From a virus: a stretch of DNA of 30,459 nt. Under the pieces are notes generated by a model. That model saw only the letters and a list, made by a program, of their open reading frames with translations. It did not search any database and was not told where the DNA came from. Location: the IMG/VR virus record IMGVR_UViG_3300027741_000190, positions 1-30,459 of that record. The stretch is one strand, 5' to 3'. This document shows positions 3,748 through 21,763 of the stretch, one piece after another (within the stretch, counting starts at the first letter, position 1; each line of letters starts with the position of its first letter). Both the position numbers and the translations under genes were made by a program.

Positions 3748-5730
3748 ATGGATAAACCGCTTCGTCCAATCGTCGCCCGCTGGCTAGAGTGCATCAAGCA
3801 GGCGACTGCCCACAAGCGTCCCTTCACTGAGGACGCTGACGAGGCACTCAACTTCTTCGCTGGCGACCCGGACTTCATGTGGAAGGACGGCTACGCCCGC
3901 GGGGAGAGGGGTTACAACAAGGGCATGACGCCCCCTGCCTTCCGCATGCAGGTGAACCGCGTGTGGGAGGCGGTCCGTTTGTTTACCGCGGTCATCCATC
4001 ACCGGAACCCAAACAGGGCGGTGACCCCCAAGGACTATCCGATCATCGGACCCGCACTCCTTGGCATCCAGCCCCAGCCCCCCATCCCAGCCATGGGGCC
4101 GGACGGCCAGCCAATCATTGGACCGGATGGCCAGCCGGTGATGATGCCAGACCCCGGCATGCAGATGTACCAGCAGGGCTTGCAGGATCAGCAGATGATG
4201 CTGGAGAAGCGGAAGCTCGTCTCCAAGCTGTTGGAAGATTATTTGAACTACACGCCCAACGAGTTGGACTTAAAGAAGCACTCTCGCAAGGTGGTTGAAG
4301 AAGCGTTCATTAAGGGGGCCGGTGTCTGGTGGCATGAGCTTTATTCGCCCCCAGGCTCGCAGCTAAAGATGGCTGGCAGCTTCTACGACAGCATCGACAA
4401 CCTCGTCTGGGATCCTGACGCCGATGAGTTTGAGGATATCCGCTGGGCGGCGAGAAAGCGTATCCAGCCTTTGGACGAGGTGATCCAGAAGTTTGGCCTG
4501 TCCAGAGAAGATCTGAAGGGGCACATCGAAAGTTACTCGTCGCGCGGCGACAACAATGAGCGCGGCTTTGAGTACAAGAAAAAGCTAGGGAAAACGAACG
4601 ACCTCATCGTCTATTGGGAAATCTATTCCAAGACGGGGTTTGGTGACCGGCTCAAAAACGCCGATAAAGACCTCCGCGGCAAGTTTGATGCGTTCGGCCC
4701 CAACTGCTACATCGTTGTGGCAGAGGGCGTCGATTTCCCGTTGAACATGCCTGAGCAGATGCTGCAGGAGGAAGTGGACGAGACGGGTGTACCGCAGTCA
4801 ATGTTTCTGGCGGCGCAGTGGCCCATCCCATTCTGGGCAGAACCAGGCGGCTGGCCGTTCACGCCGCTGGTCTGGCACGGCAAGCCTGGGTACAGCTGGC
4901 CCATCTCTATCATTCGTCCCGGCATTGGTGAGCTTCGGTTCATCAACTGGGCTATGAGCTTCCTCGCCACTCGCATTGCGACGAGCGCGCAGGTGCTGAT
5001 TGGCGTAGCGAAGTCAGCCGACCCGGATCTAAAAAGTAAGATCCTAGAGAAAGACGAGGGGGGCTTTAAGATCGTAGAGATCTCTGAAGCCATCGGCCGG
5101 TCGGTCAACGATGTGATCTCTGTCTTCCAGATGCCCGGTGTCACATCGGACATGTACCAGATCATCTCTGAGGTCACCGCGCTGTTCGACCGGCGAGTGG
5201 GTCTGACAGAACTCATCTACGGCATGACCAGGAATCAGTTTCGGTCGGCCGCAGAAGCGCAGGTCAAAGCTGAGCAGATTTCGGTACGGCCGGATGACTA
5301 TGCAAATATCTTGGAAGACGCCCTGTCGCTGGTCGCCCGCAAGGAAGCGTTGCTTGCGCGGTGGCTGATCGGCCCGCAGGACGTTGCCCCGCTGCTTGGC
5401 CCGATGGCTGCGCAGGCATGGCAGATGCACGTACAGGGAGAAGACCCGGATTCGATTGTGCGTGAGTATTCGTACCGCGTTGAGGCTGGTTCCGTGAAGA
5501 AGCCAAACAACGCCACGCGCGTGGAGAACATCACCAACGCCATGCAGATCCTTGCCCCGATCAGCCAGGGCTTGCTCCAGGCCGGACGGCCGGAACTGTT
5601 CAACGCCCTCTTGGAAGACTGGGGCAAGGCTATGAACGTGGATGTGACGCGGTACATGGTGCCGCCTCCTCCTCCCCCACCTCCACAAGGACCGCCCCCC
5701 GAAGGACAGGCAAATGGAAATCCCGGTTGA
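3748..5730 (+). CDS. Portal protein
   Basis: The 660-residue product is the right size and in the right place (directly after the terminase) for the dodecameric portal, the DNA gate at one capsid vertex that also carries the tail adaptor. It shows the mixed-helical core expected of podovirus-type portals, with segments such as RMQVNRVWEAVRLF near 67-80 and a long central part with FINWAMSFLATR and GVTSDMYQIISEVTALFDRR. Two lineage-specific embellishments are visible: an insertion with a duplicated GPDGQP (117-122 and 125-130), and a C-terminal tail with eight consecutive prolines. AGGAG at 3738-3742 gives a clear ribosome binding site. The next gene begins inside its last codons. Confidence 0.9.
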   Translation: MDKPLRPIVARWLECIKQATAHKRPFTEDADEALNFFAGDPDFMWKDGYARGERGYNKGMTPPAFRMQVNRVWEAVRLFTAVIHHRNPNRAVTPKDYPIIGPALLGIQPQPPIPAMGPDGQPIIGPDGQPVMMPDPGMQMYQQGLQDQQMMLEKRKLVSKLLEDYLNYTPNELDLKKHSRKVVEEAFIKGAGVWWHELYSPPGSQLKMAGSFYDSIDNLVWDPDADEFEDIRWAARKRIQPLDEVIQKFGLSREDLKGHIESYSSRGDNNERGFEYKKKLGKTNDLIVYWEIYSKTGFGDRLKNADKDLRGKFDAFGPNCYIVVAEGVDFPLNMPEQMLQEEVDETGVPQSMFLAAQWPIPFWAEPGGWPFTPLVWHGKPGYSWPISIIRPGIGELRFINWAMSFLATRIATSAQVLIGVAKSADPDLKSKILEKDEGGFKIVEISEAIGRSVNDVISVFQMPGVTSDMYQIISEVTALFDRRVGLTELIYGMTRNQFRSAAEAQVKAEQISVRPDDYANILEDALSLVARKEALLARWLIGPQDVAPLLGPMAAQAWQMHVQGEDPDSIVREYSYRVEAGSVKKPNNATRVENITNAMQILAPISQGLLQAGRPELFNALLEDWGKAMNVDVTRYMVPPPPPPPPQGPPPEGQANGNPG

Positions 5731-6247
5731 AGTTAAGCGCGCTGGCGAAGAAGCCATCGCAACGTACAGGCGCGCCCTGCCCTACGGCGAGAAGTGGGCT
5801 GCGATGGTCGCCATGCAGACACCCCCGGGCACCCGCGGCACCGACCGTGCGTTTATGCAGGGTCGCATGAACAACCAGCAGCTGGATGACATGCCCGTTC
5901 GTCAGGCCAAGTACGTGGCCGCAGAGGCCAAGAGCGCCGGGATCAACATCTCTGGCAAGCACTACGTAGGTGGGCTTGCGGACAAAAGAGGCTGGCGTGA
6001 TCCCGAAGCATGGGTTTCAAACAATGACGATGTCCTAAAAGTCGCCCACAAGCGCCGCCTGTCAGTGTCAGGAACGGTGAACTACGACCCAGGCCCTGCG
6101 GATCCCAAGCGCAAGCTCATCAGCGAGTCGATTGTCAGGGAAGCTGTCGCCAAGGAAAAGCGGCTGAATCCTTCCGCCAAGTCCAGCGATCTCAGGGAGA
6201 AGGTCATTGAGAAGCACGCCTATCGGGTGAAGGGGCGCAACGTATGA
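5714..6247 (+). CDS. Conserved phage protein of unknown function (portal-proximal)
   Basis: The 177-residue protein overlaps the end of the portal gene by 17 bases and the following fibre gene by 4. Recognisable stretches are PPGTRGTDRAFMQGR (37-51), INISGKHYVGGLADKRG (76-92) and the basic C-terminal EKHAYRVKGR. I have the impression of near-identical motifs in other uncultured phages, always unnamed and near the portal. There is no signal peptide, membrane segment or known catalytic motif. It is basic, so it could contact DNA or the capsid interior. It lies where a scaffold or protease gene often sits, but it resembles neither. Confidence 0.75.
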   Translation: MEIPVEVKRAGEEAIATYRRALPYGEKWAAMVAMQTPPGTRGTDRAFMQGRMNNQQLDDMPVRQAKYVAAEAKSAGINISGKHYVGGLADKRGWRDPEAWVSNNDDVLKVAHKRRLSVSGTVNYDPGPADPKRKLISESIVREAVAKEKRLNPSAKSSDLREKVIEKHAYRVKGRNV

Positions 6248-6600
6248 GCTACAAGCTCGTCCAGTTCCGCCGCGGCACGGCAGAAGAATGGCGGATCAAC
6301 AATCCCATTCTGGCTGCGGGAGAGGTTGGCTATGAGCGAGACGTTCCGCTCGCCCTCACTGCATCTGCGGACACGTTTGATTATTCAGACCCAGCGTTCG
6401 GTTCGGGGGCAATAAAGATAGGGGACGGGGTGGCTCGGTGGAACGATCTACCGTACCTTCTTAACGCTCTCAGGTTCTCGCTCCCGTCCTCCAGCGATGT
6501 CGAAGTCACAGATATTAAGACCGGCGACATTTTGCGCTGGTCTGGCGGCAAATGGCGGAATTACTCGGAGACGACACTTTTAGACGGGGGTAACTACTGA
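6244..6600 (+). CDS. Tail-fibre-type protein with Mtd-N/IKIGDG anchor domain
   Basis: The 118-residue protein has the typical phage receptor-binding N-terminal signature: QFRRGTAEEW near the start, then N-P-I-L-x-x-G-E-V-G-Y, and IKIGDGVARWNDLPY further on. This is the small domain seen at the N-terminus of the Bordetella phage tropism determinant and many tail fibres, where it attaches the fibre to the baseplate or tail. A second part (DILRWSGGKWRNY) ends in LLDGGNY, a motif echoed at the end of the next protein. At this length it is probably an anchor or adaptor that polymerises with the longer fibres downstream. The start is on an ATGA overlap and the stop on a TGATG overlap. Confidence 0.8.
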   Translation: MSYKLVQFRRGTAEEWRINNPILAAGEVGYERDVPLALTASADTFDYSDPAFGSGAIKIGDGVARWNDLPYLLNALRFSLPSSSDVEVTDIKTGDILRWSGGKWRNYSETTLLDGGNY

Positions 6601-7373
6601 TGGCAACTATTCGGATTAAGCGACGGGCAAACGGTGGTGGTGCTGGCGCGCCAAGCAGTCTTGCCAACGCGGAACTTTGTTACAATGAGCAGACAAACAT
6701 TTTGTACTACGGCACTGGTACAGGCGGGTCCGGCGGCACGGCGACTAGTATTATATCGGTAGGTGGTAGTGGTGCATTTGCAAGCACTAGCTACGTAGAC
6801 TCTGCCCTGTCTTCTGGCGTGGCGTCTGCCGTTGCGTCACAGTTGACGAACTACGCCGCGCTTGCTGGTGCCTCCTTCACGGGCAACGTCGTTGTCGGCG
6901 GCAATCTGACGGTCAACGGTACGACTACCACCATCTCGTCAACCACCCTTTCCATAGCCGACAAGAACATTGAACTGGCAAAGGGTAGCACCACTGACGC
7001 GGCTGCTGATGGCGGCGGCATTTCGCTATCTGGCACCGGCACCTACACGCTGAACTGGGTGTCGGCCACAGCGTCATGGACGAGCAGCGAGCATTTCAAC
7101 ATCCTCACCGGCAAGAGCTACAAGATTGCCGGGACCAACGTGTTGTCCGCGACGGCGCTTGGTTCGGGTGTTGTCAGTTCGTCGCTGACAAGCGTGGGGA
7201 CCATCGGCACCGGAACGTGGCAGGGCACCGCGGTAGCTGTGGGCTACGGCGGCACAGGACTCACATCGGCAGTCAACGGACTCCTCAAAGGAAACGGATC
7301 GGCGTATTCACTGGCAAGCGCCGGGACCGATTACCTCGCGCCTAGTTCGGATATTGATGGAGGCACGTTTTAG
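6600..7373 (+). CDS. Tail fibre protein (repeat-rich shaft)
   Basis: The 257-residue protein starts MATIRIKRR and carries the anchor pattern P-S-S-L-x-x-x-E-L-x-Y-N-E ... L-Y-Y-G shared with the genes at 7374 and 9799. A Ser/Thr/Gly/Ala-rich beta shaft follows, including SFTGNVVVGGNLTVNG and the fibre-typical SIADKNIELAKGS. The segment VGTIGTGTWQGTAVAVGYGG near the C-terminus is a widespread tail-fibre repeat. It ends in DIDGGTF, matching the GGNY end of the previous protein. No chaperone or peptidase domain is visible. It probably trimerises as part of the host-binding apparatus. Confidence 0.82.
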   Translation: MATIRIKRRANGGGAGAPSSLANAELCYNEQTNILYYGTGTGGSGGTATSIISVGGSGAFASTSYVDSALSSGVASAVASQLTNYAALAGASFTGNVVVGGNLTVNGTTTTISSTTLSIADKNIELAKGSTTDAAADGGGISLSGTGTYTLNWVSATASWTSSEHFNILTGKSYKIAGTNVLSATALGSGVVSSSLTSVGTIGTGTWQGTAVAVGYGGTGLTSAVNGLLKGNGSAYSLASAGTDYLAPSSDIDGGTF

Positions 7374-8699
7374 TTGGCGACTGTCCGAATCCTGAGATCG
7401 ACCACGGCGGGCAATACCCCAAGCTCGCTTGTTTCTGGCCAGATCGCAATCAACGAAAGCGACGGGAAACTCTTCTATCGCAACGGTTCCGGGTCCGTCA
7501 CTGCACTGGCCACGGGCGGCGGCGGCAGCATCGTCACCGCCGCGTCCGTCTCCGCGTTCCCAGCGACCGGCTCGGCGTCGAATCTCTACATCACGACCGA
7601 GGATCAGCGTATCTGGCGGTGGGACGCGACCGCGAGCATCTACGTTGAGTCGGGGCCGTCAGGCGGGTCTGGCCTCTCTTGGTCATCGGTTCCAACTTCC
7701 GCAACGGCGACGGGGTCTGTGGGGCAGATCGCGTACGACTCGCAGTACCAGTACACATGTGTGTCAACAAATTTCTGGCGGCGTGTGCCTTACGCCCTGT
7801 GGTCGCCCACCCTTCTCACTGGTTTGCAATGCTGGCTTGATGCGTCAGATCGCACCACGCTGTTTACGGCTGGCTCAGGCGGCAACTTGCCGGACGACGG
7901 CGGCAGCATCGGGCGGTGGCTGGACAAGGCTGGCAGCAATCACGCGACCGATGTTGTTGACGGCAGTAACGCGACGATCAGCACGCAGCGTCCGACTCGC
8001 GTTGCGCGAGCGCAGAATGGATTGGATGCGATTAACTTCGGCGGCACGCATTGGTTTGACCAGAATTCAGCGCGTGACATGCTGCGAAATCGTTCCTGCG
8101 CGATCATGGCAGTGGCGATGAAGTACGCCACGGTAAATAATAGCAATAGCCAGTTGGCGTGGACAAACCGGAAATCAAGCACTGGCGACACCGCAACTCG
8201 CTATCAATTATCGCATCGCAGTGAGAACACCGTTGGAGGCAGCAGTCGTCGCTTAGACTCTGACTCTTCCATTACGCTCGCGACAACTAGCACGGTGCCT
8301 CCATTCGACACCAGTTGGCATGTGCATGTCTCGTTGTGCGATTGGGTGAATGGCACTCTGTACCATCGGGTCGATGGAACTCAAATCGGGACTGGGTCAT
8401 TTCTGAGCAGCGGGAACACATCAGATACCAGCCTTGGCACGGCAGCTAGTTCGTCTGATGGCGGCACATGGACGGCTATTGGAGCCAGTACTAGGACGCT
8501 ACGAACAGACGGCGTTGCAAACAATCTGGCCTTGTCGTCTGGGTCACAGATTGGCGAAATGATTTGCCATGCTCGCACCAGTGGCTCCTACGTCACAGCA
8601 GACCTCCAGACGGTGGAGGCGTATCTCGCGTGGCGGTGGGGACTGCAAGCCAATTTGCCAGCCGGTCACCCATACAAGAGCGTGCCGCCGTCCTTTTAA
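7374..8699 (+). CDS. Tail fibre / adhesin with ConA-like (LamG) module, TTG start
   Basis: The 441-residue product begins at TTG, with GGAGG at 7359-7363. The choice is supported by homology, because the resulting MATVRILR start matches MATIRIKR in the previous gene. The anchor motif (PSSLVSGQIAINESDGKLFY) is followed by a linker and then a module starting SWSSVPTSATATG and YDSQYQYTCVS. The C-terminal half looks like a concanavalin/laminin-G-like carbohydrate-binding domain: LDASDRTTLF, IGRWLDKAGSN, and an ending like AYLAWRWGL ... PAGHPYKS, which is common in such proteins. It is probably a receptor-binding protein recognising host glycans. The next gene has a clearly related central and C-terminal part. 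Confidence 0.85.
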   Translation: MATVRILRSTTAGNTPSSLVSGQIAINESDGKLFYRNGSGSVTALATGGGGSIVTAASVSAFPATGSASNLYITTEDQRIWRWDATASIYVESGPSGGSGLSWSSVPTSATATGSVGQIAYDSQYQYTCVSTNFWRRVPYALWSPTLLTGLQCWLDASDRTTLFTAGSGGNLPDDGGSIGRWLDKAGSNHATDVVDGSNATISTQRPTRVARAQNGLDAINFGGTHWFDQNSARDMLRNRSCAIMAVAMKYATVNNSNSQLAWTNRKSSTGDTATRYQLSHRSENTVGGSSRRLDSDSSITLATTSTVPPFDTSWHVHVSLCDWVNGTLYHRVDGTQIGTGSFLSSGNTSDTSLGTAASSSDGGTWTAIGASTRTLRTDGVANNLALSSGSQIGEMICHARTSGSYVTADLQTVEAYLAWRWGLQANLPAGHPYKSVPPSF

Positions 8700-8725
8700 T
8701 ATGAACACTTACTAAGGACTCACTG

Positions 8726-9721
8726 ATGCCAATCTCTTACCCATCGTCGCCGACGACCAACCAGATATACACCTACGGCAACCGTAACTATCGGTGGACC
8801 GGAACAGCGTGGGAGTTCGTCGCATCAACCTCGGGCCTCGCATGGTCAAGCGTGCCAGCGTCATCGACGGCTACTGGGGTTGCTGGTCAGGTCAGCTACG
8901 ATTCGCAGTACCAGTACACCTGCGTTTCAGCAAACTATTGGGTGCGGACGCCGCTGACGCCGTGGTTGCCGACTACTGCCGGACTGCAACTGTGGCTAGA
9001 TGCGTCCGATCCACTTACGCTGTGGGATGCCACGTCCGGCGGTGCGCTGACGGAGGCGGATGGTCAGGTGCGACGATGGCAGGATAAGTCTGGCAATGCA
9101 GCGCACGCAACCATTTCTGCGAACGGTCCAACTCGCAAGACAAGCGTTAGGAACGGGCGCGATGTCCTTAGGTTCGACGGTGTTAATAACTATCTACAGA
9201 CAGGTGCAATCTCTGGTTTAAACTCGCTGACCATGACCACGTTTTTTGTTGGCTCGCAGCGAGTTACAGGAACAGTCGGGACGGCTTTGACATTAGGGTA
9301 CGGCGACTTTAGTGCCACCAGCTCAAACGAGAACCGACACGAGTTAATTTCGTTTGATTCTTCGGCAACTCTGGCGGCATTTGCTCGCAACTCAGTTGGC
9401 AGTGCTGTGGCCGTGAGTTCTGGGAGCAGGCAATCTTTTACCGCCAATGAGCTTTTGGTCGCCGGGTATACCATCGATTCATCCGGGGCGTTGCTGGCAT
9501 ACAAAAACGCCGCGACCCCGCTGTCTGGCGTTGCCGGGTCGGGGTCTAGCGCAGTTGACACTCCATCACTTCATCAGACCGTGACGCTTGGTGACAACCC
9601 AGCAGCGGCGGCAAAACTGGATGGCGATATATGCGAGTTGCTGATTTACAACACGCGATTGTCAGACGCAAACCGCAACGCGACTATCAGCTATCTGATG
9701 AAAAAGTGGGGTATCGCGTGA
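8726..9721 (+). CDS. Adhesin with LamG/ConA-like module, paralogue of the preceding gene
   Basis: The 331-residue protein lacks the PSSL anchor of its neighbour. It instead opens with a short module (PISYPSSPTTNQIYTYG ... YRWTGTAWEFV) of the kind found in other phage fibres. From residue 37 it repeats its neighbour's architecture: AWSSVPASSTATG, YDSQYQYTCVS and GLQLWLDASDPLTLW, then RWQDKSGNAAHAT and a jelly-roll-type domain ending SYLMKKWGI. Protein-level similarity is obvious while the DNA has diverged, so this is an old duplication. It likely binds a different or variant surface glycan. TAAGGA lies 13 bases upstream of the ATG. Confidence 0.83.
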   Translation: MPISYPSSPTTNQIYTYGNRNYRWTGTAWEFVASTSGLAWSSVPASSTATGVAGQVSYDSQYQYTCVSANYWVRTPLTPWLPTTAGLQLWLDASDPLTLWDATSGGALTEADGQVRRWQDKSGNAAHATISANGPTRKTSVRNGRDVLRFDGVNNYLQTGAISGLNSLTMTTFFVGSQRVTGTVGTALTLGYGDFSATSSNENRHELISFDSSATLAAFARNSVGSAVAVSSGSRQSFTANELLVAGYTIDSSGALLAYKNAATPLSGVAGSGSSAVDTPSLHQTVTLGDNPAAAAKLDGDICELLIYNTRLSDANRNATISYLMKKWGIA

Positions 9722-9798
9722 CCGACCACCTCACTGAGGCGGCAACGAGGACGTTGGTTGCGGGACAATAGTCTTTAGGCCCATTTCGCAGGATAGAC

Positions 9799-10935
9799 AT
9801 GCCACCCCCACGCCTTAAACGCAGCAACACGGCAAATGCTACCCCGGCCTCCTTGGAGGACGGTGAGATCGCCATCAACCAGGCGGATGGAAAACTGTAC
9901 TACCGGACGGCTGGTGGCGGGGTGTCGTCGTTGGCCGGAACCATCGTTGATGGAAGCGTGACAATTGCCAATATTGCCGACGGCAGCATCACCTCAGCAA
10001 AGATTGCAGACGGGGCTGTAGCAACAGTAGACATCGCAAACTCTGCCGTCACGTACGCCAAGATTCAGAACGTCTCTGCAACCGACAGGATACTTGGTCG
10101 GTCCACTGCGGGGGCGGGGGTTGTCGAAGAGATCGTATGCACCGCGTTTGGCAGGAGCGTCTTGGATGATGTAGATGCTGCCGCCACCAGGACAACGCTT
10201 GGGCTTGGCACTGCCGCCACTGCCGCAAGCACCAGTTTTGCGGCTAGCTCGCATACCCACGCGGCCACCGAAATTGTCAGCGGAGTGCTGGCCGATGCGC
10301 GCCTGTCAGCCAACGTAGTTTTAACTACAGACTCTCGTCTCTCTGATGCTAGAACCCCAACGTCGCACGTTCACGGCAACATCACCAACGCTGGTGCAAT
10401 CGGCACTGTGTCTGGGCAGATTGTTGTCACTGGCTCTAGTGGTGTATTGACCACGGCTGCGACGATTGCTGCCACTGCCGTCACCGGGCTAGCCACCGTT
10501 GCCACCACTGGCAGCTACAACGACTTAACCAACAAGCCGTCAATTCCATCGGCCTACACGTTGCCTACCGCATCGGCCACTGTGCTGGGCGGCGTGAAGA
10601 TCGGTTCTGGCATCAGCATCGACGGCACCGGCGTCATCTCCGCCTCTGCGTCGTATACCCTACCCAGCGCCACTACTGCCACGCTGGGTGGCGTCATTGT
10701 TGGAACGGGCCTTGGCGTAACAAGCGGCACAATTAGCGTGACCTACGGCACAACCGCGGGCACGGCCTGCCAAGGCAATGACTCGCGATTGTCTGATGCC
10801 CGCACCCCGCTTGCGCACACACAGGCTGCTTCCACAATCACTGGCCTCGCCACTGTCGCCACATCGGGTTCCTTTACCGACCTGACCAATCAGCCAACGA
10901 TCCCGACGTTCGGCCGGTTCCTAGCCCTCCTTTGA
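9799..10935 (+). CDS. Long repetitive tail fibre
   Basis: The 378-residue protein starts with the shared anchor (PRLKRSNTANATPASLEDG, then EIAINQADGKLYY). It continues as a shaft of short beta repeats, such as DGSVTIANIADGSITSAKIA. Two repeat families stand out: DSRLSDARTP occurs twice, and GLATVAT followed by DLTNKPSIP-like sequence occurs twice. A TLPxAxxxxLGGVxxGxG repeat also occurs twice. These are classic tail-fibre shaft elements. There is no obvious receptor-binding tip, and the protein ends abruptly after PTIPTFGRFLALL. The tip may be supplied by one of the small beta-rich proteins encoded next. The 77-base gap before it holds no convincing terminator. Confidence 0.83.
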   Translation: MPPPRLKRSNTANATPASLEDGEIAINQADGKLYYRTAGGGVSSLAGTIVDGSVTIANIADGSITSAKIADGAVATVDIANSAVTYAKIQNVSATDRILGRSTAGAGVVEEIVCTAFGRSVLDDVDAAATRTTLGLGTAATAASTSFAASSHTHAATEIVSGVLADARLSANVVLTTDSRLSDARTPTSHVHGNITNAGAIGTVSGQIVVTGSSGVLTTAATIAATAVTGLATVATTGSYNDLTNKPSIPSAYTLPTASATVLGGVKIGSGISIDGTGVISASASYTLPSATTATLGGVIVGTGLGVTSGTISVTYGTTAGTACQGNDSRLSDARTPLAHTQAASTITGLATVATSGSFTDLTNQPTIPTFGRFLALL

Positions 10936-11911: not shown

Positions 11912-13612
11912 ATGCCAAAAGCCAACTACGGATTTAAGGGCACTGCGATTACGCTGGCAGACGCTGTTGCTGCCGGTGCGGCAATACCGGCAGCGCAGTA
12001 CCAGTACTACTCGCAGTTGGGCGCGATCTCACCGTTGCTTCCGCCGGGACGCCCAAGTGGACTCACTGTCACTGGCGGCACCAATCAGGTGACAGTGAGC
12101 TGGACTGCGCCGTCCGGCTCTGGCAGCAACGCCGCCACTGGATACAAAGTGTCATACGTTAATGACAGTGGCACTGCGGTTACAACGACAACCTCATCTA
12201 CAAGCACAACCATCACAGGACTGTCTAGCGGTTCCACATATTCGTTTTCAGTAGTCGCATACAACGTAAATGGAGACGGCGACCCAGAGTCTGTAAGCGG
12301 TTCTCCGCTATCGTTCTCTACTACTGCCGTCATGCTAACTAGCGGCACCAGCTACACAGTCCCGTCCGGTGCCAACTCCATGAAGATTTGGGCCGTTGGC
12401 GCTGGTGGTAGCTCCAGTGCTTGGAACGGTGGCGGGGGTGGAACAGCGTACCGCACATTCTCATGCACCCCCGGCACCACCATTAGTTACTCACTCAACG
12501 ATGATACTGTTGTGACATACGACAGTATATCTATGCGGGCCTACGCGGGTGGCTCTAGTACCGGCAGTTTTGGTTCACTCAGTAACACTGTGTGTAACGG
12601 TGGAGTGTTTGGAGGTGCAGCAGATGGTGGTGCTCAGGGCGGGCGTTCGCGCACTCAGTCGCTTAGTCAAACTGCCTATTCAAGCGGTGCTGTTGGTCAG
12701 GGCGGTAGCGGATTGGATGAATGGCACAGCAACAGCGTAGAAACAGGTTCAATTCTTAGCTGTGGCCGCATACCAGCGGCAGATGTAAGCGATCTATTTG
12801 CGGCGTTGGAATTGGCTGGTGTCAACACCACAGAAAGTTGCGGCTCAACCGCCGCTTTTGGGTCGGGCGGCTACCAATACAAGTACGGCACTCCGAAGAG
12901 TTTCGGGATCGGTGGTGGTGGTTATGCTCTTGCCGGATATGGCAATCCCAGCGGCGCGGTGGTCATCAAATTTATGGCAGGCACCGTAAGCAACCCCCAG
13001 CCCTCATACACACCCAGTGCCGTTCTTCTGACAAGTGGCGCGCAAAGCAGTTCGCTGTACAACTTCAACGGAAGCGCATCTGAATTTCAAAAATACACTG
13101 TGCCGACCGGGGCTACCAAGGTGAAGGCATGGGCGGTAGGGGGCGGGTCGTTCCCATACGCCGGTGGTGTTGCGTATGCGGAGTGGCCTGTGTTCTCTGG
13201 GCAGTCGATTTATTATCGCGTTGGCGCATCGCGGGAATCGTCCTATGTAGTTGCTTTCGGAAGTCGCTTCTTGATAGGCCACTGCGGCCAGAATCGCACT
13301 CAGGGTGTCGGACTCTATTCCGGCGGCGACGGCGGTGCCCAAGGTGGGCGGGGCACCCAGTACGGCGGTTACGATTGGGGCGGTTCAATCGGAGGGAACG
13401 GGTCTGCCCAGTATGTCGGCGGTACATACAGGACGCGAAAGGCTCCAATCGACGTTAGCGGCCTTCTGGCGGCGGTGACACTTGCTGATGGCCCGTCCGA
13501 TTTTGGATACGGCGACTACACTGAGAAATACTACAGCCTGCCCCCCGGAATTGGCGGCGGTGCCAGATGGGGCGACGGCGGGCAGGGTTGCGTTGTCTTG
13601 TATTTTACATAG
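11912..13612 (+). CDS. Fn3 plus duplicated glycine-rich-domain adhesin
   Basis: The 566-residue protein has a short N-terminal segment, then a fibronectin type III domain at about 46-137 (PSGLTVTGGTNQVTVSW, GYKVSYVNDSG, TYSFSVVAYNVNGDG). Two copies of a Gly-rich receptor-binding-type domain follow, at about 141-355 and 378-566. Each opens with a T-V-P-x-G-A-x-x-x-K-x-W-A-V-G-G/A-G strand and carries GGAQGG loops. Each also has a D-V-S-x-L-x-A-A-x-x-L-A-x-G helix, and a final hydrophobic strand (VVIKFMAG in one, CVVLYFT in the other). Gly-rich loops of this kind present variable residues in the distal adhesins of other phages. It is probably a receptor-binding protein. It is followed by the sulfotransferase gene eight bases on. 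Confidence 0.82.
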   Translation: MPKANYGFKGTAITLADAVAAGAAIPAAQYQYYSQLGAISPLLPPGRPSGLTVTGGTNQVTVSWTAPSGSGSNAATGYKVSYVNDSGTAVTTTTSSTSTTITGLSSGSTYSFSVVAYNVNGDGDPESVSGSPLSFSTTAVMLTSGTSYTVPSGANSMKIWAVGAGGSSSAWNGGGGGTAYRTFSCTPGTTISYSLNDDTVVTYDSISMRAYAGGSSTGSFGSLSNTVCNGGVFGGAADGGAQGGRSRTQSLSQTAYSSGAVGQGGSGLDEWHSNSVETGSILSCGRIPAADVSDLFAALELAGVNTTESCGSTAAFGSGGYQYKYGTPKSFGIGGGGYALAGYGNPSGAVVIKFMAGTVSNPQPSYTPSAVLLTSGAQSSSLYNFNGSASEFQKYTVPTGATKVKAWAVGGGSFPYAGGVAYAEWPVFSGQSIYYRVGASRESSYVVAFGSRFLIGHCGQNRTQGVGLYSGGDGGAQGGRGTQYGGYDWGGSIGGNGSAQYVGGTYRTRKAPIDVSGLLAAVTLADGPSDFGYGDYTEKYYSLPPGIGGGARWGDGGQGCVVLYFT

Positions 13613-13620
13613 GAGATTTT

Positions 13621-14139
13621 ATGGGCGATTTACTACGCTGCCCAAACGGTAGCGCTCTTGTGCTTACTCCCCGATCCGGGTCGCACTCTCTTTGTGACGC
13701 CGCATTGGCGTCGTTCTGGCCCGACGCACCCAGATTGCCAACGTACCACCCCGCCGCATCCCTTCCCATCCAAGAGTTTTTCCCCGCCGACGTTGGTGCC
13801 GCTACGGCTGTGGCAATGGTGGTTCGCAATCCCGTTGAGCGGTTCCGCAGTATGTGCGCGCACCGCCCTAACCAAACCATAGAAGAGCATCTGCAACAGC
13901 CGGTGTATGGCCCGCTCCCCGCAGGCCAGTTCTCCAAGCTGTTTCGGTTTGAGGATCAGTTGCAAGAGTGTGCCGATTGGCTTGGCATCACTACGCCTCT
14001 GGAACAAATCGACCCCACTGAGCCGTCAGCCAAGCCCGACCTGTCACCAGAGCAGGAAGCCCGCGTCAGAGAAATCTACGCAGACGATATCACCCTGTGG
14101 GAATCTCTTCAGCCCACCAATGACACCGAAGGTCAATGA
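13621..14139 (+). CDS. Sulfotransferase-like protein
   Basis: I place the start at ATG 13621, which has AGGAG ending six bases upstream, rather than at an earlier in-frame start inside the previous gene. The 172-residue product carries both PAPS-binding signatures of sulfotransferases: the 5'-phosphosulfate loop TPRSGSHSL at 16-24 and the 3'-phosphate motif VVRNPVERFRSM at 67-78 (Arg69 and Ser77 as expected ligands). A C-terminal Y-A-D-D-x-x-L segment is also typical. It is shorter than most family members (commonly 220-300 residues), so it may be a minimal catalytic core. The expected reaction is transfer of sulfate from PAPS to a glycan or protein tyrosine. The acceptor is unknown. Its location between the adhesin and the tail adaptor suggests virion or host-surface modification. 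Confidence 0.82.
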   Translation: MGDLLRCPNGSALVLTPRSGSHSLCDAALASFWPDAPRLPTYHPAASLPIQEFFPADVGAATAVAMVVRNPVERFRSMCAHRPNQTIEEHLQQPVYGPLPAGQFSKLFRFEDQLQECADWLGITTPLEQIDPTEPSAKPDLSPEQEARVREIYADDITLWESLQPTNDTEGQ

Positions 14140-15275: not shown

Positions 15276-15547
15276 TCGTCATAGACAAGTGGACTGGGTT
15301 GGTGACCAACGCCTCGCCGTATTCGATCCCGCCCGGGGCGTCTGTTCAGCAGGTCAATTTGCAGTGCTTGGTTCCGGGGAAGCTCACCGTGCGAGCCGGA
15401 CTGACTCCGATCACATTCGCATCGGCCGACTCCACATCCTCTCCGGTTCGGTCGGCGTTCCGATACCAGAACGGAACCGCTGAGCATCTTGTCTACCAAG
15501 ACTCCGCGGGCCGCATCTACTCCTCCGTGAAAACTGGCAGCGCCTAA
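15272..15547 (+). CDS. Nozzle-like protein, N-terminal part (separate ORF)
   Basis: I set the start at GTG 15272, inside the GTGA overlap with the adaptor stop. The earlier ATG at 15227 would overlap that gene by 49 bases. The 91-residue product, WTGLVTNASPYSIPPGASVQ near its start and then LTVRAGLTPI, looks like the N-terminus of short-tail nozzle or stabilisation proteins. In those, a PxxxPxGAxxxxxN segment opens the beta propeller. Its end (VRSAFRYQNGTAEHLVYQDSAGRIYSS) reads as the first propeller blade. It stops with TAA at 15545-15547, exactly where the next ORF starts. The two probably form one functional nozzle translated as coupled polypeptides. Confidence 0.7.
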   Translation: MIVIDKWTGLVTNASPYSIPPGASVQQVNLQCLVPGKLTVRAGLTPITFASADSTSSPVRSAFRYQNGTAEHLVYQDSAGRIYSSVKTGSA

Positions 15548-18138
15548 TGACGTTCCTTGCTCAACGCCGGTCTGGCCAAGTTGTCTCTATCTCTCTGGCC
15601 ACTGGAGGCTCTGGGTACACAGCCCCACCTGCCGTGAGCTTTTCTGGTGGCGGCGGCACTGGTGCGTCTGGTATCGCCCACATGGCCGGTACGCAGGTGG
15701 AATCGGTAGTTATAACAAATGGTGGAACTGGCTATACATCCTCTCCAACGGTCACCATCTCTGGCAACGCATCTGCGACCGCGGGCGTGTACACCGGCGC
15801 AGTGATTCCTGCTTCGTTTGTGCGATCCCGGTTTAATGATTTGTACGCCTTCGACGGCATGGGGCGCGGCTTGCGGTGGGACGGCTCGGCCAGCACAATG
15901 CAGCCCATCGGTCTTCAAAAGCCCTACAAAGGACCGGCAGTCACTATCGCCAGTTCCGCTCTTGCGGGCTATGTGGACGCCGTAAATGTGGTCAGCCCTG
16001 GCAGCGGCTATTCCGTTGCGCCGACCGTTACGTTTACGGGCGGCTCCCCCACAACGGCAGCGGTGGCACGCGCGGAGGCTGTGGGCGGGCGAATAATCGG
16101 CATCACGGTGTCAGAGCCGGGGGCTGGCTATCAGTCTGCACCATCTGTGACGCTAAGTGCCAGCAATGCCTCCGGTGCTGCTTTCTCTGTTGGAGTGCTG
16201 GGGTCTGTGCGTTCGGTCGCTATCGCTGGCGGTGGGACTGGCTACACCTCTGCCCCAACGGTTGTGTTCTCCACTGCACAAGGTCTGACCAAGGCCAACG
16301 CGACCGTCACCATTTCTGATTCGGGTTCGATCTCTTCCATTGATCTGCTGAGCGGCGGCACTGGAGCCACGGGGGCCGTGACTGCCTCTCTGAGCGGTGG
16401 CGGCGGTACGGGGGCCAGTTTGTCGGTCGGAATGCAGTATGGCGTCTCAGCTGTGACTGTCACCAACGGCGGGACGGGATTCCTGACGCCGCCCGCAATC
16501 TCGTTTCTCCCTGACATCACTGACACAACGGCATCCGATGCCGCAGCAACGGCCACTGTGTCAGGCGGCAGCGTCACTAAGGTTACCGTGTCTGGCGGCG
16601 GGATCTACTCGCTGCCACCCACGGTGGTCTTGGGCGACTACAACGCCACGGCAACGGCGACTGTCTCCAACGTGATGCGCGGCAAATACAAGTGCGCCAT
16701 TCGCTACATCGACTCCACGCCAGAGAAGTTCCGCGGGCCGGTCAGTTCATCGATCTCTGAGCTTGTGGAGGTGGACGTTCAGAACGGGGCCTCGTCGCTA
16801 ACGTGGACGCTTGCCCATGCTGGCTTGGATGACCGCGTCTACGCCGTGGAGTTGTGGCGCACCACCTCCGACCAGAGCGTCCTCCTATTCCGCGTGGCTA
16901 CGATTCTGCGCACAGCCGCCAATTTCACGGGCACATACACCGACACCCTCAACGACGACAAGCTGTCTGACACCACACGCACCGGCTACGGCTTGCTGCC
17001 CGTGACTCTTCCAAGCGGGCAGTTGAATGCGCGGCGTTTCGGTGTGCCTCCTGCCAACTTCTCGGTCGCCTGCATGTTCCAAGATCGCTGTTGGCTGGCT
17101 GTGGATACCACCGGGGAAAAGCCCAACAGCCTTTATTTCTCTGAGGTGGACGAACCCGAATCCATTCCGATGGAGAACGAGATCGTTGTGCAGGAGAACG
17201 CTGGCGACTCGGACGCCGTGGTTGCGCTTATCCCTCTTGGGTCGTTCCTCATCGCTGCCCAGGCTCGCCATCTCTACAGGCTGACCTATGTGGCCCAGCC
17301 GGTGCTTGACGCCAGCATCATGCTGGTGGCGTATCGGGGAGTCCTCAACAGCCGGTGCTGGGATGTGATGAGCGGAGTTGCTTTCATCGCAGATAGCTAC
17401 GGTATCTATGTGTTTGATGGCCAAAGCGACCAGCCGATCTCCGTGCCCGTCGATAACTACTTCCGCGACGGCATCATCGACTTCTCCAAGTCCTCACAGT
17501 TCTTTGTGCGTGCAGACTTGGCGACCAAGGTGGTTCGCTTTTTCTATTGCAACTCAACAGACACAGCCCCGGCGCGCGCTCTGTGCTATTCCGTTACCAC
17601 AAAGGCGTGGTGGGACGAGCAGTACGCAACGCCACTGACTGCCGCGGCACCTTACGCTGTCAGCAGCCAGCAGGGCGTGGCCTATGCAGCGTCTGGTTCC
17701 GGTTTTGTCCGCATGGCTGGGTACTCCGACAACGGCACTGCGATCCCGTACAGCTTCCGGTCAGGCAACCTGGAGATCGCCAACGAAGACGGCAGGCAGG
17801 CCGTTAGCGTCCTATACACGCCCACCACTGGCGATTCGTCGCTCTCACTGTCCCGGTACTTCAACGGCTCCGACACGGCGCGGCCAAACGCGGTGGCGAG
17901 TGATCGCGGAGATGGGTTCGTCCCGACCTCTCCCGGTTCCGCGTCTGTGCTTAACATGAATCGCACTCGCTCTACGCTGGGCGAGGCGAGCGGAGTGGCC
18001 CGCGCAATGTTCTACGGTGGCAACGAAGAGAGGGCCGCTGGATCCGACCGGCATGTCGCAATTGCCTTGGCTGGGACGCAAGCGTCTTCCGCTGACGCTC
18101 CTGCCATTCACACCGTCATTGTGGAGGGCGCGAAGTAG
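15547..18138 (+). CDS. Nozzle-like tail protein with inserted GGxGY beta repeats
   Basis: The 863-residue protein begins on the TAATG that ends the previous ORF. Residues 12-373 hold eight copies of a roughly 22-residue repeat (pattern V-x-x-V-x-V-x-x-G-G-T-G-Y-x-x-x-P-x-V-x-F) at 12-34, 51-73, 143-165, 183-204, 221-243, 262-284, 300-321 and 343-363. Between repeats 2 and 3 sits a propeller-blade-like segment (SRFNDLYAFDGMGRGLRW, 94-111). From about 376 the protein reads as a tail nozzle: KYKCAIRYIDS, NSLYFSEVDEPESIP, LIPLGSFLIAAQARHLYRL and IADSYGIYVFDG. So repeat modules appear spliced into a nozzle beta propeller, probably as outward decorations. The nozzle closes the distal tail channel in short-tailed phages. 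No lytic or depolymerase motif is seen. Confidence 0.78.
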   Translation: MTFLAQRRSGQVVSISLATGGSGYTAPPAVSFSGGGGTGASGIAHMAGTQVESVVITNGGTGYTSSPTVTISGNASATAGVYTGAVIPASFVRSRFNDLYAFDGMGRGLRWDGSASTMQPIGLQKPYKGPAVTIASSALAGYVDAVNVVSPGSGYSVAPTVTFTGGSPTTAAVARAEAVGGRIIGITVSEPGAGYQSAPSVTLSASNASGAAFSVGVLGSVRSVAIAGGGTGYTSAPTVVFSTAQGLTKANATVTISDSGSISSIDLLSGGTGATGAVTASLSGGGGTGASLSVGMQYGVSAVTVTNGGTGFLTPPAISFLPDITDTTASDAAATATVSGGSVTKVTVSGGGIYSLPPTVVLGDYNATATATVSNVMRGKYKCAIRYIDSTPEKFRGPVSSSISELVEVDVQNGASSLTWTLAHAGLDDRVYAVELWRTTSDQSVLLFRVATILRTAANFTGTYTDTLNDDKLSDTTRTGYGLLPVTLPSGQLNARRFGVPPANFSVACMFQDRCWLAVDTTGEKPNSLYFSEVDEPESIPMENEIVVQENAGDSDAVVALIPLGSFLIAAQARHLYRLTYVAQPVLDASIMLVAYRGVLNSRCWDVMSGVAFIADSYGIYVFDGQSDQPISVPVDNYFRDGIIDFSKSSQFFVRADLATKVVRFFYCNSTDTAPARALCYSVTTKAWWDEQYATPLTAAAPYAVSSQQGVAYAASGSGFVRMAGYSDNGTAIPYSFRSGNLEIANEDGRQAVSVLYTPTTGDSSLSLSRYFNGSDTARPNAVASDRGDGFVPTSPGSASVLNMNRTRSTLGEASGVARAMFYGGNEERAAGSDRHVAIALAGTQASSADAPAIHTVIVEGAK

Positions 18139-19334
18139 TGTTCACACAGAGCATGCCTGCACTGGCGCAGGCTCTGTCCGGCGCACTTCCAGAGGAAGCA
18201 CTGCGTCAACTGATGCAGTCGCTGGGCAACTGCCAGCAGCCGCTCACGCACCGAGGTGCTATCAATCTCCAGCAGCCTGCCTCCACGGGCGTGGGCGGGC
18301 TGGCTCGCCCTGGCGCTTGGAGTCCTTCCGACTACTCGGGCTTTTTACCTACAGCTGGGCAAGACGTTTTTGTCGATATTGCGGGAGACAAAAACTACAA
18401 CACCAATAACACCAACAACTACGGTGGGCACCAGTTTAACTTCCCGATAAACCAAGACTTCACCTACAACAATTATTTCGGTGGAGACACGTTCAACGTG
18501 GCTGGCGACAGTACGTTCAACAACACATTCACCAACAATGCCAACACCACTCGGCTCAATGTTGAGTACATCAACAACACATACGTTGGTGGGGATGGGC
18601 GAGATGGTGCAGCCGGGGCCAACGGCTTTAACGGCATGGACGGCTTCAACGGCCGGAACGGCATCGATGGCGTGACGCGCGTGTTTTTCTTTGGCGGCGG
18701 CAGGCAGGGCGTGCGTCAAACCAAAGCGTTGATCTCTGAAGTCAACGTGAAAGGCTCCGTGGTTGTCCCCACGGTCACAGCCGCTACGGTATCGTCCACG
18801 GCAGTAACTGTTGGCACCTCGCAGCGGGAGGTGACGGTCACCGTAAACGGGACAGCAACGGTCCCGACAGTCAAAAGCGCCAGCGTGAGTACCATTCCCA
18901 CTGGAGGTACGTTCTCGGCCACGCCCACCGGGATTGCCGCTGCGGCTACCCTTGGCACGCTGGCCGGAGTAGTGGCCTATAAATATGCGTCAGGAGGATA
19001 CCTGGACGCCTCTTGCAATCTTGTGCTGACCTACGCCAGCACAACGGCAGCTGTGACGATTTCTGGATCACCCGCGGTTACTATCAGTTCGCAGGGGGCC
19101 GTGTCCGGTCCAGTCACTCTGACGGGTTCTACCTCCGCACCCGTCACATTGACTGCGGGCACGGCGAGTGTTGCTGTGCCATCGACGGGGTACTTCTTCA
19201 TTACGGAGCCGACTGGGGCAGGCACTTTGCAGACGGCCGCCGTTACGATAGCGGCAAGTACGGCTACCAAGCAGTTGATCCTCAAAGTCAACACTCCGCG
19301 CGCTGACTTGATTACATATCTGAGGCCCAACTAG
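18138..19334 (+). CDS. Asn-rich, collagen-like fibre protein (GTG start)
   Basis: The GTG start overlaps the previous TAG by one base. The 398-residue product has a short helical head (residues 1-35), then an Asn-rich zone at about 86-150 built of NTN, NNT, NNY and TFNNTF elements. An uninterrupted collagen-like stretch follows: Gly at every third position from 154 to 178, eight triplets. The remaining 220 residues are Thr/Val/Ala-rich beta repeats, as in fibre shafts. Collagen triplets in phage proteins commonly form trimeric fibre stalks. This is probably a side fibre or appendage bound to the nozzle. Location between the nozzle and the Cys-rich lectin supports a virion surface role. No enzyme motif is visible. 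Confidence 0.8.
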   Translation: MFTQSMPALAQALSGALPEEALRQLMQSLGNCQQPLTHRGAINLQQPASTGVGGLARPGAWSPSDYSGFLPTAGQDVFVDIAGDKNYNTNNTNNYGGHQFNFPINQDFTYNNYFGGDTFNVAGDSTFNNTFTNNANTTRLNVEYINNTYVGGDGRDGAAGANGFNGMDGFNGRNGIDGVTRVFFFGGGRQGVRQTKALISEVNVKGSVVVPTVTAATVSSTAVTVGTSQREVTVTVNGTATVPTVKSASVSTIPTGGTFSATPTGIAAAATLGTLAGVVAYKYASGGYLDASCNLVLTYASTTAAVTISGSPAVTISSQGAVSGPVTLTGSTSAPVTLTAGTASVAVPSTGYFFITEPTGAGTLQTAAVTIAASTATKQLILKVNTPRADLITYLRPN

Positions 19335-19336
19335 CC

Positions 19337-20560
19337 ATGCCATGTGCCTGTTGCGAGACTGGTCGGTGCTGCGATTCCTTTTCCAATTCCTGCTCTGAAA
19401 TCAACCACTCGTTTTGCGCCTACTTAGGAAGCCGGTACAACTTTTCCCAAGGTACATGTGCTGCCACCGCGTGCATCGACCTAAACGGACGTTCTACTTG
19501 CAGTCTTACGGACTACTGTCAGTGTACTGGCAATTACCGCACATCCACTGCGGTCGCGACTTGCAATTGCAATTCATTGATTGCAGCGGGCTACACCAAA
19601 GGTGGGTGCGACTGGTTCAATTGCACTGCATGTGATTCCGCCACGGGCACTTGTGTGAGTGCGTGCCCCGCCTACCGATCTTGTTGCGCAGGAACGTGTT
19701 GTCCAGTTTCGCAAACTTGCACTGCGGGAACATGCACTGATCGCTGCACATCCCCGTCCACATTTTGTTTAACATCAACCGGGGCCACCAGTGTTGCTTA
19801 CGAATGCTGCACAACCGGCCAGAAATGTTGCGGCTCATCGGGCTGCTTGGCGACAACGACCACTAACTTCACCGTTGACGTTACCCAGAACGTGTGGGTT
19901 GACACGGGCGTAACGATTGCTACGGGGACGGGCGTGACCATCACGGCCAGCGGCACGGTACAGTGGGCAGGAGCCGGTTCGACGGTTACGCCAAACGGCG
20001 TGGCGGCAGGAGTCTGCTACAACTTTACGAGTTGCTCCCCAGCCACCGCATTGTGTCACATGGCCCTAATTGGCCGCATCGGTTCCAGCGGCACCCCGTT
20101 CCTTGTGGGTTCCAGCTACTCAGGATCTCCCGGTGTAGGGAGACTGTACCTCAGACAGAACGACAGCTGCGTTTCCGACAACAGCGGAACCTTCACTGGG
20201 ACCATCGTCACGGACCCATGCCCTGGCTACACCCCAGCGGCCATTGGTGAGCCAATCGTTTACGCAGCCGGGGAGGAACCGCCAAAACAGTTACCGGGGC
20301 CGGGGTCGGAAATGAAACTGTTATTGGGTCTGGTGGGGATCGTCGCCTCCCCCACATGCAGCTGTAACGCCCGGGCCGCACAGATGGACACTTGGGGCGA
20401 ATGGGAGTGTCTGAAACGCTTCCCAGAAATCTGCGGCTGGCTCAAAGAAGAGGCCGAGAAGCGGGAATTGTGGTTTTTCCCACCGGCCGGGGTGGCTTTG
20501 ATTCTGGCTGCGATTTCCTTGTCGGCACTGAAACGACCGTTCCGGGGCATTCATAGGTAG
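19337..20560 (+). CDS. Cys-rich / LecA-like lectin / transmembrane protein
   Basis: The 407-residue product has four parts. Residues 1-171 contain 32 cysteines, many as CC or CxC pairs (CACC, RCC, SCC, TCC, ECC, KCC), resembling small disulfide-rich or granulin/EGF-like repeats. Residues about 177-292 match the PA-IL (LecA) galactose-binding lectin pattern: VWVDTGV ... TITASGTVQW ... ALIGRIGSSGTPFLVG ... GRLYLRQND ... DNSGTFTGTI. The Asn-Asp and Asp-Asn pairs are placed like the calcium/sugar ligands of LecA. Residues 341-366 form a C-x-C ... Q-M-D-T-W-G ... C ... C box that I recall at the C-termini of uncultured phage proteins. A hydrophobic helix (about 381-398) followed by basic residues could span a membrane. 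Nothing resembles a signal peptide at the N-terminus. Role: probably glycan binding. Confidence 0.8.
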   Translation: MPCACCETGRCCDSFSNSCSEINHSFCAYLGSRYNFSQGTCAATACIDLNGRSTCSLTDYCQCTGNYRTSTAVATCNCNSLIAAGYTKGGCDWFNCTACDSATGTCVSACPAYRSCCAGTCCPVSQTCTAGTCTDRCTSPSTFCLTSTGATSVAYECCTTGQKCCGSSGCLATTTTNFTVDVTQNVWVDTGVTIATGTGVTITASGTVQWAGAGSTVTPNGVAAGVCYNFTSCSPATALCHMALIGRIGSSGTPFLVGSSYSGSPGVGRLYLRQNDSCVSDNSGTFTGTIVTDPCPGYTPAAIGEPIVYAAGEEPPKQLPGPGSEMKLLLGLVGIVASPTCSCNARAAQMDTWGEWECLKRFPEICGWLKEEAEKRELWFFPPAGVALILAAISLSALKRPFRGIHR

Positions 20561-20569
20561 GAGACTTTC

Positions 20570-21763
20570 ATGGCATTTAACGGTTCCATCATTGCCCCTT
20601 GGGGGGCCAACACGGCCAAGGAATACGCCACGGCCGTTGGCTCGCAGATCGCCGCTGCCCCCGGTCAGTTCGGCCAGACTCTTGGTGGGATGTACGACTC
20701 CTACAACAAGGGCTATGGCACATACAACCAGGGCCTTGCCAACCTTGGCAACAGCTACGCGCAGAACTACGCCGCCATGGCGGGTGGGATCGGCGGCGTG
20801 GCAAACGCTCTGGGAAATACGTGGAACAACGCCCAAGCCAACAACCAAGCGTCTTCTGCTGCCGAGGCGGCGCGACAGGCCGCGGTGTCCAATCTCGGCA
20901 CGGCGGCTATGGCGAACTACGGCAACGTCGCTGGGCAAGGACTGCAGGCGTGGGCTGCGAACCAGAACGGATACCAGAAGTCACTGACTGATATGAATGT
21001 CGGCAACCAGAACGCCGTCAGCCAGTTGGGTGTGGGTCGGTACAACGCTTTGGCTGGCCTGGGCAAGTCCGGTGCTGCGATGCAGGTCGGCCGCGATGTC
21101 TCCGCTGCGCTTCCGGGGCTGGCCGGTAATGCCTCCGTTGGATCTCCTGCTAGTGGCGGCGATGGATTCCGCATGCTGGATGGCCTGCGCGGCGACATCA
21201 ATAACGGCGCTGAGCTAAACGCCTTGGCACGCACGCATGACGCCGACGTTGGCTCCCTCAATGCCGACCAAGCCATTGCCCGCAACACGCCGCGTACGAT
21301 GGTGAGCGATGCCTATGGCGCACTGATGGACTTCAACAAGCTGAATCTCGGCGCGTCCCGCAATGGAATGAACCAGTTCTATGACTTCGCCCGAGAGTCC
21401 CAGGCAAACAACTACCACCCCGGCCAAGCCATCCCAACCGGCTCGCTCTTGGATGCTCTAGCTGGCGGTTACACCGACTCTGCAAATCGAATTGGCGGCG
21501 TGCAGAAGGACATGAACTCTGGCTGGTCAGACAACAAGAACATCTACAAATCTTCCGTGGCGGGCGTGAACGATCTGTTCAATCGCAGTATCGGCAACAC
21601 GGGCGCGTTTAACAGCGCGGCACAGAATCAGCAGGCCGAATATGCAATGCAGGACGCCGCACTGGCCCGCAGCAAGCAGCAGGCCGACAGGCAGCGGAAG
21701 GACATTCTGGCCAAGTTTGGTTCGCCCGCAGCCTACTCTCGCGCCCTCAACGGATACGCCTAA
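20570..21763 (+). CDS. Internal virion (ejection-type) protein, Ala/Asn/Gly-rich
   Basis: The 397-residue protein is rich in Ala, Asn, Gly and Gln, with long stretches of low-complexity helix (YNKGYGTYNQGLANLG, ANALGNTWNNAQANNQ). There is no enzymatic signature, signal peptide or membrane segment. Compositions and gene order like this, right after the nozzle and fibre genes, are typical of podovirus internal virion proteins that are ejected with the DNA and may form a channel across the host envelope. The ORF begins ten bases after the previous stop with a GGAG close upstream and ends on a TAATG overlap, so it is coupled to the next gene. The role is inferred. Confidence 0.65.
   Translation: MAFNGSIIAPWGANTAKEYATAVGSQIAAAPGQFGQTLGGMYDSYNKGYGTYNQGLANLGNSYAQNYAAMAGGIGGVANALGNTWNNAQANNQASSAAEAARQAAVSNLGTAAMANYGNVAGQGLQAWAANQNGYQKSLTDMNVGNQNAVSQLGVGRYNALAGLGKSGAAMQVGRDVSAALPGLAGNASVGSPASGGDGFRMLDGLRGDINNGAELNALARTHDADVGSLNADQAIARNTPRTMVSDAYGALMDFNKLNLGASRNGMNQFYDFARESQANNYHPGQAIPTGSLLDALAGGYTDSANRIGGVQKDMNSGWSDNKNIYKSSVAGVNDLFNRSIGNTGAFNSAAQNQQAEYAMQDAALARSKQQADRQRKDILAKFGSPAAYSRALNGYA

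Follow-up and report, generated by a model that had tools for sequence, protein, structure and literature searches.

How can a phage whose particles assemble in the reducing cytoplasm obtain folded proteins that contain dozens of cysteines? The question is raised, and made testable, by a phage gene whose 407-aa product (P0001) joins three modules in a single gene: a Cys-rich N-terminal region, a domain predicted to have the LecA (PA-IL) lectin fold, and a C-terminal helical domain, here called CT, through which such folding might proceed. The gene lies in a window (the whole stretch of DNA that was analysed) that makes up the whole of an IMG/VR virus record, 30,459 bases long. P0001 probably belongs to the virus particle as a host-binding component that can be exchanged. 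The main discovery of the analysis is the CT end-domain, which represents a previously unannotated domain family carried by many unrelated proteins. A sequence-only reading of the locus had noticed the cysteines, the lectin-like part, a C-terminal Cys box and a hydrophobic helix; it overlooked that the box and the helix belong to one domain family that accompanies Cys-rich proteins in many phages. The features of the gene are as follows.

19337..20560, + strand: whole gene (P0001, 407 aa), Cys-rich region, LecA-fold lectin and CT module
19337..19849, + strand: residues 1-171, forming the Cys-rich scaffold; 32 Cys, among them six CC pairs
19850..20224, + strand: predicted LecA (PA-IL)-fold lectin domain, residues ~172-296 (profile against PDB, AF2, Foldseek)
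20162..20182, + strand: putative calcium-site segment D276...D281-N282, aligned with D/D/N of PllA and EclA
20225..20296, + strand: low-confidence linker, residues 297-320 (pLDDT <50 at 299-318), near the identity step between L120 and L122
20297..20557, + strand: CT module, predicted four-helix domain, residues 321-407, motif GPGxELKxLL...GIVAxPxCSCN...M...C...I.GWLKEEA.KR
20357..20365, + strand: invariant C341-x-C343 (62/62 non-redundant CT domains), start of CT helix 2
20480..20533, + strand: CT helix 4; hydrophobic in this phage clade, whereas nearly all other CT domains have an amphipathic, cationic helix here

Genome context

The window apparently represents part of a phage genome of about 60 kb, and several relatives are 60-63 kb long. 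It encodes a P22-like portal protein, which places the P0001 gene in a podovirus-like structural module. The gene order from the fibre-like gene through the P0001 gene to the conserved downstream gene is the same in related phages, in which full-length P0001 homologues (36-66% identity) occupy the equivalent slot.

3748..5730, + strand: P22-like portal protein (PF16510, 1.5e-8; phrog_156 portal, 2.2e-11)
18138..19334, + strand: fibre-like neighbour gene with a collagen-like segment; N-terminal ~150 aa conserved, remainder variable in most relatives
20570..21763, + strand: conserved downstream gene closing the variable cassette (comparison with relatives)

A single-sequence search of viral contigs gave no relatives. 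These were found stepwise, from the portal to homologues and from their alignment to a profile. Neither the portal nor the CT module had a match among 50,697 INPHARED phage records; the lineage is thus known from metagenomes only, in the collections searched. The syntenic phage contig L201 sits in a Pirellulaceae bin, which hints at a Planctomycetota host, a link that rests on few binned contigs.

Several other genes of the window were noted. Short fibre-like proteins are encoded one after another at positions 6244-10935; the leading one has an Mtd_N domain (PF18454), and several of them have tail-protein PHROG matches in common. A protein starting MGRRRAGLRCLVFYIGDFMGDLLRCPNGSALVLTPRSGSHSL (13567-14139) had no match in Pfam or PHROG. 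An 863-aa protein (15547-18138) contains repeated GGTGYTSAPTV-like units, through which it matches many head, tail and baseplate PHROGs.

Cys-rich region and lectin domain

P0001 has no family in Pfam or PHROG scans, and its Cys-rich region has no match in Pfam or PDB. The protein contains 41 Cys in total, of which exactly 32 fall within residues 1-171, as the sequence-only reading had counted. When P0001 was aligned with 11 homologues (12 sequences in all), mean conservation was 97% in the 32 Cys columns, against 35% in the 139 other columns; 21 Cys columns were invariant and 31 were conserved at 90% or more. The Cys tract is therefore a selected scaffold, of either disulfide or metal type. 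Between P0001-family pairs close enough to measure, dN/dS was ~0.17-0.22. A chance low-complexity origin of the tract, raised in the sequence-only reading, was rejected on the same conservation figures.

The cysteines follow a CC-x(3-5)-CC spacing in a region rich in Gly, Pro and aromatic residues and almost devoid of His, as read from the sequence. This favours disulfides rather than bound metal. We take the region to resemble granulin-like disulfide-rich extracellular repeats. The likeness, judged by eye, lies in the CC-x(3-5)-CC spacing and in conservation confined to Cys, whereas the P0001 region differs in lacking any Pfam or PDB match.

Residues ~172-296 are predicted to adopt the LecA (PA-IL) fold. 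A profile of the lectin family searched against PDB at E<=1 returned three sequences only, all of the PA-IL family: PllA (E=0.0078), the N-domain of EclA (0.13) and a PA-IL lectin (0.18). Taken in blocks of ten residues, positions 171-290 of the AlphaFold model had a pLDDT of about 71-92, and all 11 Foldseek matches below 1e-3 were LecA, PllA or EclA, with probability 1.00 and TM (target) of 0.65-0.80. Profile and predicted fold thus bear out the LecA-like domain proposed from the sequence. A single-sequence phmmer search of the domain against PDB gave chance matches only, so that the assignment rests on profile and fold. The Pfam PA-IL model (PF07828) had no match by hmmscan in any of 13 members, nor in the genome search. 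P0001 therefore shares with the LecA/PA-IL lectins (PF07828; LecA, PllA and the EclA N-domain) a beta-sandwich across the whole ~120-aa domain, a weak but specific profile similarity and a D/D/N triad, but it escapes the Pfam model, is phage-encoded and is fused to two further domains. A 2024 paper (PMC11875179) described EclA as the first case of a LecA domain joined to a further one. A literature search on phage LecA-like lectins, Cys-rich virion proteins and Cys-rich tail proteins of Planctomycete phages found nothing relevant.

The domain likely has a sugar ligand. D276, D281 and N282 align with the EclA calcium ligands Asp114, Asp121 and Asn122 (PMC11875179), and the triad is kept in 9/13 relatives and missing in four (L125, L128, L131 and L132). 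The sequence-only reading had proposed a calcium-dependent galactose lectin. Its calcium part agrees with the window protein and with these nine relatives, but its galactose specificity is not supported: the LecA galactose-contact loop (His50/Gln53 region) is replaced in P0001 by a longer, Cys-containing loop in which the matching residues are absent. EclA also lacks galactose-binding residues (PMC11875179). Since the loop is remodelled, as it is also altered in EclA, galactose is not predicted as the ligand.

The CT domain and its link to Cys-rich genes

The Cys box and hydrophobic helix are modelled as one compact four-helix domain. The AlphaFold model of CT, built from 56 sequences, had a mean pLDDT of 89.9 and a pTM of 0.78. 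CT alone had no relative in Pfam, PHROG or PDB (PDB fold search included), and a fold search in BFVD gave one match only, to an uncharacterised protein of an uncultured phage.

The C-x-C...C...C box described from the window sequence proved conserved in part. Its CxC is present in 62/62 non-redundant CT domains and its third Cys (C358) in 57/62, but the fourth (C366) varies even between close relatives. In sequence and model, the invariant CxC lies at a helix start and may be a redox-active Cys pair. In model compounds, CxC dithiols can act like protein disulfide isomerase (PMC2672033, citing Woycechowsky and Raines 2003), which makes a catalytic role of CT plausible. CT resembles these CxC peptides in its dithiol, here invariant and placed at the start of a helix; the peptides themselves are small catalysts.

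The hydrophobic helix of the sequence-only reading likewise exists in this clade and hardly elsewhere, and it corresponds to helix 4 of the compact domain. In the window protein its mean Kyte-Doolittle value is 1.99 across 19 residues with zero charge, and across this phage clade it is uncharged with values of 1.6-2.1. Nearly all other copies contain 4-8 charged residues in helix 4. Because of this charge and the packing in the compact model, helix 4 is probably a packed helix and not a membrane anchor.

CT copies bear at least a dozen different N-terminal parts. Among 60 assessable non-redundant copies (the divergent PPPYTD-type branch being left out), 48 were fused to a Cys-rich region or encoded directly downstream of a Cys-rich gene: 15 were fused, and 33 had their start at most about 150 nt from where a Cys-rich ORF ends, frequently with a 4-nt overlap. 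Other ORFs made up the background, 6.6% of them lying downstream of a Cys-rich ORF, which gives an odds ratio of 39 for unfused CT (Fisher 3e-28, a value that overstates independence because CT copies share ancestry). An earlier count with other gene calling gave 19/29 copies with a Cys-rich link against a background of 4.4%. In L110, L111, L113 and L200, CT and the Cys-rich protein are encoded by two adjacent genes; by this comparison of sequences, P0001 appears as the fused form of what other phages encode as two neighbours. In the PPPYTD-type branch (L165-L198), CT is preceded by a conserved N-terminal part of ~104 aa that contains no Cys, and a Cys-rich neighbour is usually absent.

Other fusions point to a role of CT in processing or recruiting, as judged from sequence. 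In L147 (779-6411) and L162 (1040-6330), a GT2 glycosyltransferase with CT adjoins a ~1,100-aa Cys-rich, Thr-rich protein, whose long Thr-rich linkers it may glycosylate. These Cys-rich neighbours contain 83-89 Cys. In a contig of an uncultured Methylococcaceae (L202:482-1390; CAIMEB010000049.1), CT is fused to a membrane-anchored AhpC/TSA-type thioredoxin-fold protein (AhpC/TSA and Redoxin matches), and the gene is followed by one for a Tat-like Cys-containing protein. The order of CT and Cys protein recurs in L209, a second genome of the same order. The partner of CT in the L202 protein may be labelled, by resemblance, a MauD/TlpA-type thiol-disulfide oxidoreductase, whereas CT itself has four helices and not a thioredoxin fold. 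Further downstream in L202 lies a gene that is PqqD/HprK-like by eye.

CT was found in 2/251 bacterial genomes of the order of the Methylococcaceae genome and in 2/392 of the phylum of a Planctomycetaceae genome, the seed genome being counted in each case. CT is therefore essentially viral. This unannotated family, which occurs in many uncultured phages and is linked to Cys-rich genes, is more novel and more important than the lectin.

Variable cassette and possible functions

The conserved parts of the locus, namely the first ~150 aa of the fibre protein, the CT module and the downstream gene over most of its length, mostly showed 65-95% identity between phages. For the C-terminal part of the fibre and residues 1-~250 of P0001, identity was 28-70% in most pairs; in the close pair of the window and L119, unlike most pairs, the fibre end is conserved. 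Across window positions 18138-20560, the C-terminal part of the fibre and the N-terminal part of the lectin protein form one variable stretch with conserved flanks in most relatives. L120 and L122 are 100% identical as far as the lectin/CT border and 84-86% identical beyond it, a step that likely marks a recombination junction. CT was present in 8/8 near-full-length relatives searched, in one copy each except in one linear record with CT at both contig ends.

Phage receptor-binding proteins usually combine a constant anchor with a variable head. Both parts are seen at the P0001 locus, and the P0001 gene lies within the virion structural module adjoining fibre genes. From sequence comparison, the locus thus has the anatomy of a receptor-binding cassette with an exchangeable head between constant flanks, the constant part of P0001 presumably attaching the head to the virion. 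The tail-associated lectin suggested by the sequence-only reading fits this position next to a fibre-like gene.

Of the explanations considered, the one that we favour, with a chance of about one half, is that P0001 is a virion adhesin made of a Cys-rich scaffold, a LecA-fold head and a constant CT that docks it, matures it or does both, with the head swapped by recombination. The Cys-rich region would form a rigid scaffold, probably held by disulfides, that becomes oxidised either outside the cytoplasm, which is reducing, or in the course of lysis and thereafter. The lectin would present its modified site, containing calcium in most members, to glycans of the host surface. CT would join the head to the virion, act in cis on the Cys-rich part through thiol-disulfide maturation by its invariant CxC, or both. 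The head would be exchanged, and the particle retargeted, by recombination between two conserved stretches, the N-terminal part of the fibre gene on one side and the CT/downstream gene on the other. With such an adhesin, the known range of phage receptor-binding proteins would come to include a LecA-type lectin, and one whose domain architecture was absent from the databases searched. Some observations point against this explanation: the calcium triad is lost in four of the 13 relatives, no signal peptide was visible when the N-terminus was read by eye, and no thioredoxin genes were found in relatives. The third CT Cys is also absent from some copies, and the PPPYTD branch mostly lacks Cys-rich neighbours, so that CT does not serve Cys-rich partners alone. 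A search of relatives for Erv/ALR sulfhydryl oxidases gave no match, but its control was unmatched too, and it is therefore uninformative.

If CT were purely a structural docking domain that plugs the adhesin into the virion, its cysteines would be structural or metal-binding and its link to Cys-rich genes would merely reflect the usual adhesins. This alternative is not negligible, though we consider it rather unlikely. It accords with the conservation of CT while heads vary, with its occurrence in all eight near-full-length relatives searched and with the usual anchor-and-head logic of receptor-binding proteins, but many phages encode CT as a small protein of its own, with an N-terminal part that varies; a simple plug would hardly be expected on glycosyltransferases or on a thioredoxin-fold protein, and the invariance of CxC in 62/62 domains exceeds what a plug needs. 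Unlikely as well, and put forward tentatively, is the proposal that CT is a virus-specific maturation factor catalysing or guiding disulfide formation in Cys-rich partners, and also recruiting a glycosyltransferase and a thioredoxin-fold oxidoreductase. If true, it would constitute a phage-encoded oxidative-folding system for adhesins.

The virion adhesin must also be weighed against two readings of its parts. The Cys-rich region could instead bind metal, as a metallothionein-like or zinc-cluster domain that is produced and functions in the cytoplasm. No export signal was seen, the cytoplasm in which phage structural proteins mature is reducing, and 32 Cys form an even, dense set, all of which would suit metal binding; yet the spacing and composition are those of extracellular disulfide-rich repeats and not of CxxC...CxxC zinc ribbons, and similar repeats of other CT-linked proteins lie in long Thr- or Ser-rich, surface-like proteins. 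Metal binding is accordingly improbable. Very improbable is a membrane-anchored surface lectin of lysogens, which the sequence-only reading had offered as its other option, with helix 4 spanning the membrane and the lectin displayed on the cell. The 19 uncharged hydrophobic residues of helix 4 in this clade and the integrase-like genes of some relatives speak for it, but the protein lacks a visible signal peptide, helix 4 packs into a confident, compact and soluble-looking model and is charged in nearly all other members, and the gene is part of the structural module, flanked there by fibre-like and virion-type genes. Moreover, no integrase above the cut-off occurs in the relatives with the closest homologues (G003-G005, G007 and G017).

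Integrase-like genes were absent from the window, G003-G005 and G017. Matches above the Pfam cut-off were present in the more distant relatives G019, G024 and G026 (loci L290-L292), and a weaker one, below the cut-off, in G007.
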